A stretch of 64,000 bases of DNA, from NCBI RefSeq assembly GCF_000374105.1, contig NZ_KB893650.1:1172862-1236861 (forward strand). Direction: 5' to 3'. Position numbers and translations under genes: made by a program. Below are positions 25,666 to 28,963 of the stretch, piece after piece. Position 1 is the first letter of the stretch. Every line of letters starts with the position of its first letter. The notes under the pieces were generated by a model, which ran no database searches, was not told the DNA's origin, and was given only the letters and a program-made list of their open reading frames with translations. This DNA comes from Kangiella aquimarina DSM 16071 (GTDB lineage Bacteria; Pseudomonadota; Gammaproteobacteria; Enterobacterales; Kangiellaceae).

Positions 25666-26145
25666 ATGACTGACTTTACTGAATTCGACCACAATTGCAT
25701 GCAACGAGCTTTTGAATTGGCGGCTATCGCTGAAGAGAAGGGCGAGGTTCCTGTTGGTGCGGTATTGGCGAAAGAGGGTGAAATTATTTCTGAAGGCTTT
25801 AATCAACCGATATTAAGCCATGACCCAACGGCTCATGCTGAAATGGTAGCTTTAAGGGCTGCAGGGGCGCAGATAGAGAATTACCGCCTCGTAAATTCAA
25901 CTTTGTATGTCACTCTTGAACCTTGCGCCATGTGTGCAATGGCGATGGTTCATGCGAGGGTAGCTAGGGTGGTGTTTGCAACTCCCGACCCAAGAACTGG
26001 CGCTGCGGGATCCGTGCTCAATATTTTGCAAAATCCTAACTTCAATCACCAGTGTCAGGTCGAATCAGGTCTTTTACAGGACGATTGTAGCGAGCAGCTA
26101 AAACGATTCTTTAGAAACAAAAGAAAAAGCTCGGACAAAAAATAA
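25666..26145 (+). CDS. tadA: tRNA-specific adenosine deaminase TadA
   Basis: 159 residues. Zinc-dependent deaminase signature: HAE (His57, Glu59) and PCAMC (Cys87, Cys90), then ARVARVVFATPDPRTGAAGSV. TadA converts A34 to inosine in the tRNA-Arg(ACG) anticodon; it is essential in E. coli. No good Shine-Dalgarno sequence is visible. The C-terminus is basic. A promoter and the lysine-rich leader of the next gene begin directly after the stop. Confidence 0.95.
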   Translation: MTDFTEFDHNCMQRAFELAAIAEEKGEVPVGAVLAKEGEIISEGFNQPILSHDPTAHAEMVALRAAGAQIENYRLVNSTLYVTLEPCAMCAMAMVHARVARVVFATPDPRTGAAGSVLNILQNPNFNHQCQVESGLLQDDCSEQLKRFFRNKRKSSDKK

Positions 26146-26156
26146 CCATTTATTAT

Positions 26157-26184
26157 TTGACATTATCGTGAAATAACTTATATT
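26157..26184 (+). promoter_or_regulatory. Putative promoter of the lysine leader and LysC-LysA gene
   Basis: Perfect TTGACA at 26157-26162 and TATATT at 26179-26184, spaced 16 bases. The expected transcription start (about 26190-26192) falls at the leader-peptide ATG at 26193, so the leader would be translated from a leaderless or nearly leaderless RNA. Confidence 0.65.
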
Positions 26185-26192
26185 CCGCAGTT

Positions 26193-26267
26193 ATGAAAAT
26201 GACTTTTACGTTCAAGAAACACAGCAAGAAGGCACTTAAAAAACGTGTCTCGATAAGTTGTGGGTGA
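26193..26267 (+). CDS. Lysine-rich leader peptide of the lysC-lysA attenuator
   Basis: A 24-codon frame with 7 Lys codons, six of them in three tandem pairs: 26214-26219, 26226-26231 and 26238-26243. The peptide is MKMTFTFKKHSKKALKKR followed by VSISCG. It lies between a promoter and an intrinsic terminator in front of a lysine-biosynthesis gene. The function inferred is to sense charged tRNA-Lys: a ribosome stalled on the Lys pairs leaves the segment over the stop codon free to form an antiterminator. No Shine-Dalgarno sequence is present. Found by eye; lysine-rich short frames can occur by chance in A-rich DNA, but the RNA pairings support it. Confidence 0.7.
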   Translation: MKMTFTFKKHSKKALKKRVSISCG

Positions 26268-26330
26268 AAGAATAGTTAAGCATTTATCAATATTTCAAAC
26301 CCGCACAGGACATCCTCTGCGGGTTTTTTT
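26220..26330 (+). promoter_or_regulatory. Transcription attenuator (1:2, 2:3 and 3:4 RNA structures)
   Basis: Segment 1, CACAGC (26220-26225, inside the Lys codons), can pair with GTTGTG (26257-26262) in segment 2. Segment 2, TGTGGGTGAAA (26259-26269, over the leader stop codon), can pair with TTTC and ACCCGCA in segment 3 (26293-26305, two-base bulge, one G-U pair). Segment 3, AAACCCGCA (26297-26305), pairs with segment 4, TGCGGGTTT (26318-26326), to give the terminator. The 2:3 and 3:4 stems exclude each other, as in trp and his attenuators. Confidence 0.7.
26297..26330 (+). terminator. Intrinsic terminator of the lysine attenuator
   Basis: AAACCCGCA and TGCGGGTTT form a 9-bp stem with a 12-base loop and seven consecutive T bases at its end (26324-26330). 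It lies 62 bases upstream of the lysC-lysA ATG, inside its leader. Confidence 0.85.
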
Positions 26331-26392
26331 ATGGGCTAAATATATTTAGAGTAAAGATTCGTATTCGTATAAAGAAAAGCGATCGGAGAACA

Positions 26393-28963
26393 ATGATGAC
26401 AACAAATAACACAGCTTGGCATGTTTTAAAGTTTGGCGGAACGAGCGTATCAACGCGAAGTAACTGGGATACTATTGCTAGAATCGTCAAACGAAAACGT
26501 GCGAAGGGCATTAATGTATTTGTTGTTCATTCAGCGGTCAGTACTGTTTCTAATCGCCTTGAGCAGCTCATTCAATTTGCTATTGCAGGCGAACATGAGA
26601 CAGCTTTTAAGGAGCTGGTAGAGCTTCATCAACAATTGATTGAGCAGTTAGATGTCAATCAGAGTTTGTTAGATGACGAGTATCGTTATCTGAAGCGCCT
26701 TCTTGATGGCATCAATTTGCTGGGCGAAGTCAGTGATCGAATCCGTGCATTGATTATGGCGCAGGGAGAGTTATGGGCCACTAAAATAGGTGCGCGGTAT
26801 TTACATAGTCAGTTAGAAGATAAACCGCATTGGCTCGATGCCAGAGAGTATTTATCAGCAAACCGCCAAAGTCAGAATGATTATCTTGCTGCTGGATGTG
26901 ACTGTGACTTGGATGAAGCCTTGTTACAGCAAATCAGAAACAATTCAGTCATTATTACTCAAGGCTTTATTGCCAGTAATCAGGAAGGCGATACAGTATT
27001 ACTTGGGAGGGGCGGTTCAGACACATCTGCTGCATATTTTGCGGCAAAAACTGGTGCAGACAGGCTCGAAATTTGGACAGATGTTCCTGGTATTTTCACC
27101 GCCAATCCAAACCAGGTGCCTAATGCTCGCCTGCTCAACCATCTTAATTATGATGAAGCACAGGAAATGGCGTCAGCTGGAGCAAAAGTACTTCATCCCA
27201 GAGCTATTCGTCCGGCACAATTATCTAATATTCCAATTTATATCCGCTCAACCATTGATTCTGAACTCGCCGGTACTCAAATTCATCACTTCGATAATCG
27301 CTGGGGAATGGTTAAAGCGATTACTGCCAAGAATGGTATCACCTTGATATCTATGGAAAGCCAGGGCATGTGGCAACAAGCCGGTTTCTTGGCAGATATG
27401 TTCGCTGTTTTTAAAAAGCATCAAGTTTCCGTTGATCTGGTATCAACGTCTGAAACCAATGTTACAGTTAGCCTCGACAGTCTGACTCAGGTAGTCAGCG
27501 AACGCAGACTTAAAAATCTGGTAGATGAATTGTCCACCATTTGCCGGGTTAATGTCATGAAAAACTGCTCAGCAGTTTCGATTGTAGGTCAAAACGTCCG
27601 CGCCATTTTACACAAGATTGCGCCGGCATTTTCTATTTTTGAAACCTATAAAGTGTATTTATTATCGCAGGCCGCTTCTGACCTGAATCTTACTTTTGTC
27701 ATTGATGATGAGCACTGCGATAAAGTGATTGCAGCCCTTCATGAGTTGTTAATTAGCAATAACCCTAATAGTGAAATTTTGGGGCCGACTGCTAAAGAGC
27801 TCAAGAAACCTATTGAAAGCGAAACCCTTAGCGAAAAGTGGTGGCAGAAACGCCGAGCTGATATTGAGCTTTGTCTGGAGAGTCGTGAAAACGCCTATAT
27901 TTATAACCTGTCAGCAGTTAAAGATAACATCAGTGCATTAAAATCGATAAGTGCTGTTGACCAGATATTTTTTGCCGTCAAAGCTAACAACCACCCACAA
28001 GTATTAACCACGGCTTTCCAGCAGGGAATCGGATTTGAAACTGTATCAATTTTTGAAGTAGAAAGAGTTTTAGAATTGTTCCCGGATATCGGTAAAGAGC
28101 GAATCTTTTTTACACCAAATTTTGCCAGCCGTGTTGAGTATGAAAAGGCATTGGAATATGGAGTAATGCTTTCACTCGATAGCAGTTACCCTCTAAAAAA
28201 ATGGGCGGAGACTTTTGCTAACAAAAGCATCTTTTTACGAATTGATCCTAATATTGGTAAAGGTCATCACGAGAATGTACGAACTGCTGGTGCTACTTCT
28301 AAATTTGGAATTCCCATACAGGAAATTGAACAGTTATTACCAATCATAGAAGAGAATAATATTAAAGTCGTTGGTCTTCACGCGCATGCGGGAAGCGGCA
28401 TTTTAACCAACGAGCACTGGGCAGAACATGCAAAATTATTAGCCGATGTTGCCAGCCAATTCCCTGATGTGAGATTTCTAAATCTTGGTGGCGGCTTCGG
28501 TATCAAGGAACGGGCTCAGCAAACAGAGCTTACTATGGAGCAAATAAATCATAGTCTGCAGCAGATAAAATCTCAATATCCACAGTATCAGCTCTGGATC
28601 GAACCGGGGCGCTACATAGTTGCTAATACTGGTGTTCTGGTAGCTAAGGCCACTCAAGTTAAACAAAAGCAAAACTATTACTATGTTGGTATAAATACTG
28701 GCATGAATTCGTTGATGCGTCCTGCTTTGTATGGCTCCTATCATCCTATTGTTAATCTGTCGCGGCTTTCAGAGACCAAAAAGCATCTGGCCACTGTTGT
28801 TGGGCCTATCTGTGAAAGCACTGATAAACTGGGAATTGAAATTCCGTTTCCAGATACTTTTGAGGGGGACCTGATTCTTATTGAAAATGCAGGGGCCTAC
28901 GGCCATGTCATGTCTACTCATTACAACATGAGAGCCCCGGCCGAGGAGGTTTGTATACCTTAA
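26393..28963 (+). CDS. lysC-lysA: Bifunctional aspartate kinase / diaminopimelate decarboxylase
   Basis: 856 residues combining the first and last steps of lysine synthesis. N-terminal aspartokinase: VLKFGGTSVSTRSNWDTI, GRGGSDTSAAYFA, then ACT regulatory domains (about 310-460; SMESQGMWQQAGFLADMF). C-terminal PLP-dependent decarboxylase from about residue 490: FAVKANNHPQVL with the PLP lysine, HAHAGSGIL, NLGGGFGI, EPGRYIVANTG, CESTDKLG, and GAYGHVMSTHYNMR. Such fusions are known in several gammaproteobacteria. GGAG is 4 bases before the first ATG and 7 before a second, in-frame ATG at 26396. It is preceded by an apparent lysine attenuator. Confidence 0.95.
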   Translation: MMTTNNTAWHVLKFGGTSVSTRSNWDTIARIVKRKRAKGINVFVVHSAVSTVSNRLEQLIQFAIAGEHETAFKELVELHQQLIEQLDVNQSLLDDEYRYLKRLLDGINLLGEVSDRIRALIMAQGELWATKIGARYLHSQLEDKPHWLDAREYLSANRQSQNDYLAAGCDCDLDEALLQQIRNNSVIITQGFIASNQEGDTVLLGRGGSDTSAAYFAAKTGADRLEIWTDVPGIFTANPNQVPNARLLNHLNYDEAQEMASAGAKVLHPRAIRPAQLSNIPIYIRSTIDSELAGTQIHHFDNRWGMVKAITAKNGITLISMESQGMWQQAGFLADMFAVFKKHQVSVDLVSTSETNVTVSLDSLTQVVSERRLKNLVDELSTICRVNVMKNCSAVSIVGQNVRAILHKIAPAFSIFETYKVYLLSQAASDLNLTFVIDDEHCDKVIAALHELLISNNPNSEILGPTAKELKKPIESETLSEKWWQKRRADIELCLESRENAYIYNLSAVKDNISALKSISAVDQIFFAVKANNHPQVLTTAFQQGIGFETVSIFEVERVLELFPDIGKERIFFTPNFASRVEYEKALEYGVMLSLDSSYPLKKWAETFANKSIFLRIDPNIGKGHHENVRTAGATSKFGIPIQEIEQLLPIIEENNIKVVGLHAHAGSGILTNEHWAEHAKLLADVASQFPDVRFLNLGGGFGIKERAQQTELTMEQINHSLQQIKSQYPQYQLWIEPGRYIVANTGVLVAKATQVKQKQNYYYVGINTGMNSLMRPALYGSYHPIVNLSRLSETKKHLATVVGPICESTDKLGIEIPFPDTFEGDLILIENAGAYGHVMSTHYNMRAPAEEVCIP

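Follow-up and report, generated by a model that had tools for sequence, protein, structure and literature searches.

Upstream of the gene for a bifunctional aspartokinase/diaminopimelate decarboxylase (LysC-LysA fusion), Kangiella aquimarina DSM 16071 carries a leader element that is very probably a ribosome-mediated transcription attenuator sensing charged tRNA-Lys. The element was read directly in a stretch of 64,000 nucleotides of contig NZ_KB893650.1, here called the window, in which it sits between tadA and the fusion gene; tadA ends at 26145, 11 nt ahead of the promoter. Translation of a short leader frame, termination ahead of the gene and a response to lysine are what we infer from the observed sequence parts, their conservation, an in-frame constraint, the covariation of an inner hairpin and the spacing of the parts.

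The leader of the LysC-LysA fusion gene

A preliminary description of this DNA had proposed a lysine-specific leader peptide with an attenuator at this locus. All positions that it gave for the promoter, the leader frame, the Lys-Lys (KK) codon pairs and the pairings were confirmed by direct reading (Table 1). The promoter TTGACA-16-TATATT is near-consensus, with 11 of 12 consensus letters, the 24-codon open reading frame (ORF) does contain seven Lys codons and three KK pairs, and the alternative pairings of regions 1 and 2 (1:2), 2 and 3 (2:3) and 3 and 4 (3:4) are present in the window and complementary in relatives. These pairings are mutually exclusive, region 2 lies over the stop codon, and 1:2 and 3:4 are well supported. 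Overlooked in that description was the inner hairpin, which is the best-covarying helix of the element. The stretch 26193-26336 (144 nt) folds with a z of -3.48, a value equalled by none of 200 shuffles, and the terminator stem has an interior mismatch, although folding does form the stem. Lys-richness of the frame is uncommon but not extreme: the window has 419 frames that start with ATG and span 15-40 codons, and of these two contain seven Lys codons, the leader included, and two contain three KK steps. The protein encoded downstream scores 1289.8 bits against NF006515 (cut-off 802) and comprises the domains AA_kinase, ACT_9, Orn_Arg_deC_N and Orn_DAP_Arg_deC.

We propose that RNA polymerase would initiate on the A of the leader ATG or on a neighbouring base, and that a ribosome would load on the leaderless 5' end. 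If charged tRNA-Lys is short, this ribosome would stall at one of the KK pairs, cover region 1 (chiefly from the first and second pairs), hold the inner hairpin open and leave region 2 free. Region 2 (UGUGGGU) would then pair with region 3 (ACCCGCA), by which the terminator would be blocked and the fusion gene transcribed. If lysine is plentiful, the ribosome would proceed to the stop inside region 2 and cover region 2, 3:4 would form and transcription would end at the T run. Without a ribosome, the long 1:2 hairpin would sequester region 2, and the terminator would form too. We infer all of these steps, from leaderless initiation and stalling to termination and the lysine response, for the Kangiella leader.

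The his, thr, leu, trp, ilv and pheA attenuators of gammaproteobacteria combine codons for the product amino acid, a stop codon in region 2, mutually exclusive 1:2, 2:3 and 3:4 pairings and a T-tailed terminator. The Kangiella leader shares this general scheme, but unlike those leaders it uses lysine, lacks a Shine-Dalgarno sequence and has its ATG at the predicted transcript start. A leaderless leader ORF with the AUG at the transcript start is described for trpL/rnTrpL of Sinorhizobium meliloti in the accessible portion of a study of that organism (PMC10117765). The Kangiella leader would resemble trpL in its predicted leaderless start, whereas trpL is a tryptophan leader of an alphaproteobacterium. 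The same portion of that study suggests a leader peptide for the small ORF SEP5 of S. meliloti, which has a cluster of Thr and Lys codons before an aspartate-pathway gene (PMC10117765). Unlike the Kangiella leader, SEP5 comprises six Thr and three Lys codons and precedes another gene, and that portion of the study mentions no attenuator structure for it. Our literature searches of open-licence papers returned nothing pertinent on a lysine leader peptide or attenuator. The mechanism is textbook, and its specificity for lysine was not found described in the open-licence literature searched.

Table 1. Positions of the LysC-LysA leader parts in the window and of two further leaders in other loci (strands of the latter are those of L107 and L125)
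Feature	Position	Strand	Description
Promoter	26157..26184	+	TTGACA 26157-26162, 16-nt spacer, TATATT 26179-26184
Leader ORF	ATG 26193 to TGA 26265-26267	+	MKMTFTFKKHSKKALKKRVSISCG, 24 codons, 7 Lys
Leader start	26193	+	ATG 8 nt after -10, without Shine-Dalgarno; probably leaderless
Three KK codon pairs	26214-26219, 26226-26231, 26238-26243	+	proposed stall sites
Region 1	26220..26225	+	CACAGC, pairs with GTTGTG 26257-26262
Inner hairpin	26231..26249	+	GGCAC 26231-26235 / GTGTC 26245-26249; third KK pair in loop
Region 2	26257..26269	+	over stop codon; pairs with region 1 or, by TGTGGGT, with ACCCGCA of region 3 (antiterminator)
Segment in region 2	26259-26269	+	TGTGGGTGAAA; partner segments TTTC 26293-26296 and ACCCGCA 26299-26305
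Region 3, terminator 5' arm	26297..26305	+	AAACCCGCA; partner TGCGGGTTT 26318-26326
Region 4 and T run, terminator 3' arm	26318..26330	+	TGCGGGTTT; T run 26324-26330
Regulated gene, LysC-LysA fusion	26393..28963	+	856 residues; NF006515; four domains
RNA of family f163	L107:1207-1399; also L052, L100-L103, L105, L106, L108-L111, L113, L115, L116	+	before fusion gene
Pro leader	L125-L135, L137, L146; L125 in G000:C1 near 1523766-1523858	minus	L125 about 200 nt before proB-like gene

Conservation, coding constraint and ribosome geometry in Kangiella

The family search covered 40 genomes, 20 of which belong to the genus, the window's own included. A full-length fusion gene was found in 19 of the 20 Kangiella genomes, and the leader element lies ahead of it in all 19. 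The short ORF, the antiterminator and the CCCGC terminator precede the gene in each case; the leader of locus L003 is cut at its 5' end by a contig end, which leaves 18 complete leaders. Because it is conserved in 19 genomes, the element is not a chance arrangement. TTGACA or TTGACT together with a -10-like hexamer occurs in all 18 leaders with upstream sequence. Leader lengths vary by whole codons (24, 25, 26, 28, 29 or 32), and the 18 complete leaders contain 3-8 Lys codons each, with at least five in 17 of them; 13 leaders have three KK steps, 2 have two, 2 have one and 1 has none. Model R1, made from 12 leaders, recovered six divergent held-out leaders (E 1.7e-14 to 2.1e-6) and the cut leader of L003 (E 1.2e-24). 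Model R2, made from 18 leaders, gave one strong site per genome in 19 genomes (E 2.7e-26 to 9.6e-14). At E <=0.001 it matched in all 20, weakly (39.6 bits) in the twentieth genome, G031, which has neither the full fusion gene nor the Lys leader. Read by eye, the weak match in G031 is a His-rich leader with a terminator.

Substitutions were analysed in the nine leaders of equal length among the 18. Within the KK core (codons 8-18), synonymous differences (pS) amounted to 0.434 and nonsynonymous differences (pN) to 0.020 in frame (pN/pS 0.05), while the other two frames gave pS of 0.000 and 0.026 against pN near 0.12. All six codons of the KK pairs encode Lys in the nine leaders, with silent AAA/AAG exchanges at two of them. 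Some silent changes also keep a stem, as in L006, where GCA/CGT became GCG/CGC and an A-U pair of the inner hairpin became G-C. On the level of the RNA, letters differ between clades and the Lys codons persist. The substitution pattern points to translation of the leader frame, which on the KK core is conserved as protein.

The inner hairpin gave the clearest compensatory changes. Its five pairs are formed in 100% of cells in the 18 leaders, and four of them changed on both sides. When the six divergent leaders were aligned alone, double changes were seen in 6 of 7 inner-hairpin pairs, a count made without a shuffle control. The arms of the 1:2 helix differ in sequence between leaders (CACAGC/GCTGTG; CCAAGC/GCTTGG in L014; GCAATA/TATTGC in L018), and the antiterminator consists of UGUGGGU or UGCGGGU with ACCCGC, except in L014-L016, where it is UGUGCUUGGU-like with an interior loop. 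The part before the terminator folds with z values of -1.7 to -5.6 in 19 of 19 leaders, and in all 19 folds region 2 is mostly paired upstream (4-7 of 7 or 8-9 of 10 bases).

Spacing was analysed with a ribosome modelled as covering up to 11 nt past the start of the A site. The end of the last Lys codon and region 2 are 15 nt apart in 16 of the 19 leaders; this distance is 9 nt in L019 and 18 nt in the other two. From the beginning of region 2 to the stop there are 6 or 9 nt in every one of the 19. With the modelled ribosome stalled at the first or second KK pair, region 1 was covered and region 2 free for region 3 in nearly all leaders; with the ribosome at the stop, the remaining RNA folded as the terminator in 19 of 19. 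The ATG lies 6-8 nt after the end of the -10 in 17 of the 18 leaders, and the 20 nt that precede it are free of AGGA, GGAG and GAGG in all 18. The Kangiella Lys leader is thus probably leaderless, with the predicted transcript start at its ATG, as the preliminary description had supposed from the window. The conservation of Lys codons and stems in relatives that it had named as a check was also found, and its reading of the element as a lysine leader-peptide attenuator is supported by those checks that can be done by computer.

Weighing the proposed attenuator against other explanations

Several observations weigh against the attenuator. Pairing 2:3 is, by itself, the least supported one: it is complementary in 19 of 19 leaders, but it shows little covariation and hardly varies within the large clade, the leaders in which no more than 25 of 500 shuffles equalled its duplex energy number only 11 of 19, and in the window sequence alone the duplex is weak (equalled by 38 of 500 shuffles). 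A terminator pattern scan of the region found 0 where 0.8 were expected by chance. Covariation among the 12 close leaders is mixed, since the covariation score was reached in 0 of 500 shuffles, two doubly changed pairs in 259 and the further pair types in all 500. Over all 18 leaders covariation supports the structure, with 9 doubly changed pairs versus 4.5 in shuffles (reached in 0 of 500), but the alignment used (A4) was fitted to the model structure, which flatters the counts. Several of its rows have the outer helix out of register, and the 1:2 helix was paired in 79.6% of cells there, after 90.3% in the 12 leaders. Over the whole frame (codons 2-24) pN/pS rises to 0.37, a much weaker constraint than in the core. 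The geometry has exceptions as well: the second KK pair of L014 gives no 2:3, in most leaders some or all of region 1 is exposed behind a ribosome at the third KK pair, and a stall at the more distant upstream Lys codons (the second codon in L009, L010 and L013, the ninth in L012) would fail to release region 2. In L014, 33 nt separate the -10 from the ATG; L017 and L018 have a weak -10 (AAGTAT) and a single KK step. The most degenerate leader, that of L016, carries three single Lys and five Met codons, and its RNA pairings persist.

The latter leader would suit an attenuator that responds to a signal other than lysine, be it the overall speed of translation, ribosome release or a different amino acid such as Arg or Met, as would the Arg codon found after the third KK pair in each of the nine leaders of equal length. 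We consider such a signal unlikely, given that nearly all complete leaders keep five or more Lys codons, that the KK codons stayed Lys through silent changes in the nine and that the downstream gene makes lysine (NF006515). That the hairpin merely terminates tadA, or is a constitutive terminator preceded by a frame that arose by chance, is the least probable of the explanations considered. It draws on the short distance between tadA and the promoter and on the position of tadA directly upstream in most loci of the genus. Against it, the promoter, the ORF and the alternative pairings separate tadA from the terminator and are found again in every one of the 18 complete copies, and in L017-L019 the element still adjoins the fusion gene with tadA about 0.65 to 1.25 kb upstream.

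A further explanation is that the frame is incidental and that the RNA itself is a riboswitch, either an L-box or one of unknown type, which binds lysine or another ligand. A structured leader ahead of a lysine gene fits this explanation, and so does the RNA of family f163 described below, which covaries without a clear coding signal before the same gene. The accessible part of a 2013 survey places the lysine riboswitch in most gammaproteobacterial lineages (PMC3766115). Like the L-box (RF00168), the Kangiella element precedes a lysine biosynthesis gene. Unlike it, the element has a conserved and apparently translated frame, and the covariance-model search for RF00168 gave no match in the window or the genome, versus matches in 4 of 14 control genomes, so that the preliminary description, which had named an Rfam lysine riboswitch as the expected alternative, withstood this check. 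No Rfam family, the T-box and other Rfam leaders included, reached its gathering score in the window leader or in the 18 scanned loci, which comprised six Kangiella loci (five besides the window), three of family f176 and nine of family f163 (eight of these nine with the f163 core). The best sub-threshold leader match, Trp_leader (20.5 bits versus 41), covered mostly its terminator and was rejected. The KK core is under strong purifying selection and retains its Lys codons while the RNA letters change between clades. Direct ligand binding is therefore very unlikely, and we retain the ribosome-mediated attenuator.

Other leaders at the fusion gene and at other genes

No second copy of the element was found in the window genome: the search gave one strong site and seven weaker rows, and the five of these that were read are all T-tailed hairpins. 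The second aspartokinase of this genome has no terminator-linked leader upstream. Seven genomes of the family outside Kangiella encode the fusion gene at 44-50% identity. No leader was seen in the six of these loci with readable upstream sequence; five of them have an upstream frame that resembles the end of a threonine synthase. Model R1 found nothing above 14.9 bits (E 3.1) in L020-L030. In 369 genomes of the class, R2 gave five weak matches beyond the window's own (E 1.1e-4 to 7.8e-4). These were rejected after inspection by eye revealed no leader architecture; four of them are a hairpin with a T run. The class search thus yielded no convincing second lineage, at about nine candidates per genome and with stricter filters, by which weak relatives would be missed. 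Among the 30 best-scoring stand-alone lysA loci of 324 genomes with a match, no frame with at least three Lys codons preceded a terminator within 700 nt; the same scan recovered 6 of 6 positive controls, two of them with only 3 Lys.

Thirteen other fusion genes were found among the 369 class genomes, and reading their upstream regions by eye revealed one more Lys-rich frame with a terminator, L058 of family f176. Three of the four f176 genomes encode the fusion, and all three have a related leader and terminator. Their leaders in L058, L063 and L064 read MRSMTSKCKRVKQEADSKKLFPAR, MRFISKCKPAIKEAGSDVLFIAR and MIGMCAKRKVEKKEVSKKLGSAR, with 5, 3 and 6 Lys codons, respectively, and in L058 and L064 a KK pair lies in the loop of a small hairpin. 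Because their sequence is unlike that of Kangiella and two of the three carry an AGGA motif before the start, the f176 Lys leader probably arose independently.

Family f163 has yet another leader before the fusion gene, present in 16 of the 18 fusion loci read. Fifteen were aligned, and GGCGCGCCAGAGG is invariant among them. The RNA comprises CACCCRCGTAATGTGCC ... TAAAANNNATGGCGCGCCAGAGGTGCGYGGGTG, followed by a terminator AACCCGC/GCGGGTT, and the 3' strand of P1 could pair with the terminator arm. Its structure has 16 doubly changed pairs versus 9.1 in shuffles, and in the ORF frame (12 rows) pN is about equal to pS. Since nine of the 12 rows have an ATG start and an uninterrupted frame, though one poor in Lys codons, the leader may still encode a peptide. 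Rfam had no match in the eight core-bearing loci scanned. Among the 369 class genomes, the core occurs without mismatch in one, an f163 member, and with one mismatch in four others; a reversed control gave one-mismatch matches too. This apparently non-coding RNA is a candidate for an undescribed riboswitch or attenuator. L112, also of f163, is without the GGCGCGCCAGAGG core; its frame MDMSGSRIATGEKKFGKRKMHRIRAGAHGRRI, with four Lys codons before a terminator, is perhaps a peptide leader instead.

One of the weaker second-copy rows of the element search led to a Pro-rich leader (LPVPG, LPGQPxP and similar) with a terminator before a proB-like gene; this leader is present in 13 of 14 Kangiella genomes in which the gene was matched. 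The glutamate 5-kinase-like gene scores 259.5 bits against TIGR01027 (cut-off 186), and a second proB-like match occurs in 12 of the 14. In the 12 Pro leaders scored, the distance from a -10-like hexamer to the ATG is 6-7 nt, and the Pro leader is possibly a leaderless proline attenuator. In G031 (C2, L152:300-700, minus strand), the His-rich ORF MKLFSTNKHHSNHHDFFMGLV has its ATG 6 nt after a -10-like TTTAAT and is followed by a T-tailed terminator, after which a second His-rich frame, MNRLNNLHQHHHSLHKRRC, occurs. Judged from its sequence, the His-rich frame is probably the leader of the his operon.

From these leaders a wider picture may be drawn, which in our view has an even chance of being correct. 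Kangiella would read lysine by translation of a leaderless leader and not by an L-box. The fusion gene would have gained at least three unrelated leader-RNA sensors: the Kangiella Lys leader, the independent f176 Lys leader and the apparently non-coding f163 RNA, which may be an undescribed lysine-responsive riboswitch. With Pro and His leaders whose ATG also lies at the predicted transcript start, leaderless attenuation would be a general habit of the genus. The accessible part of the 2013 survey names only His, Leu, Thr, Trp, Ile/Val and Phe attenuators, partly since Rfam then had no others; lysine is missing there, and the L-box covers that role (PMC3766115). The existence of a conserved lysine leader would mean that lysine control, too, can be exerted by ribosome stalling. 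The LysC-LysA gene would provide a natural case of different sensors at one gene, and through its leaderless start the element would allow attenuation in the absence of a Shine-Dalgarno sequence to be tested in a small and clean system.

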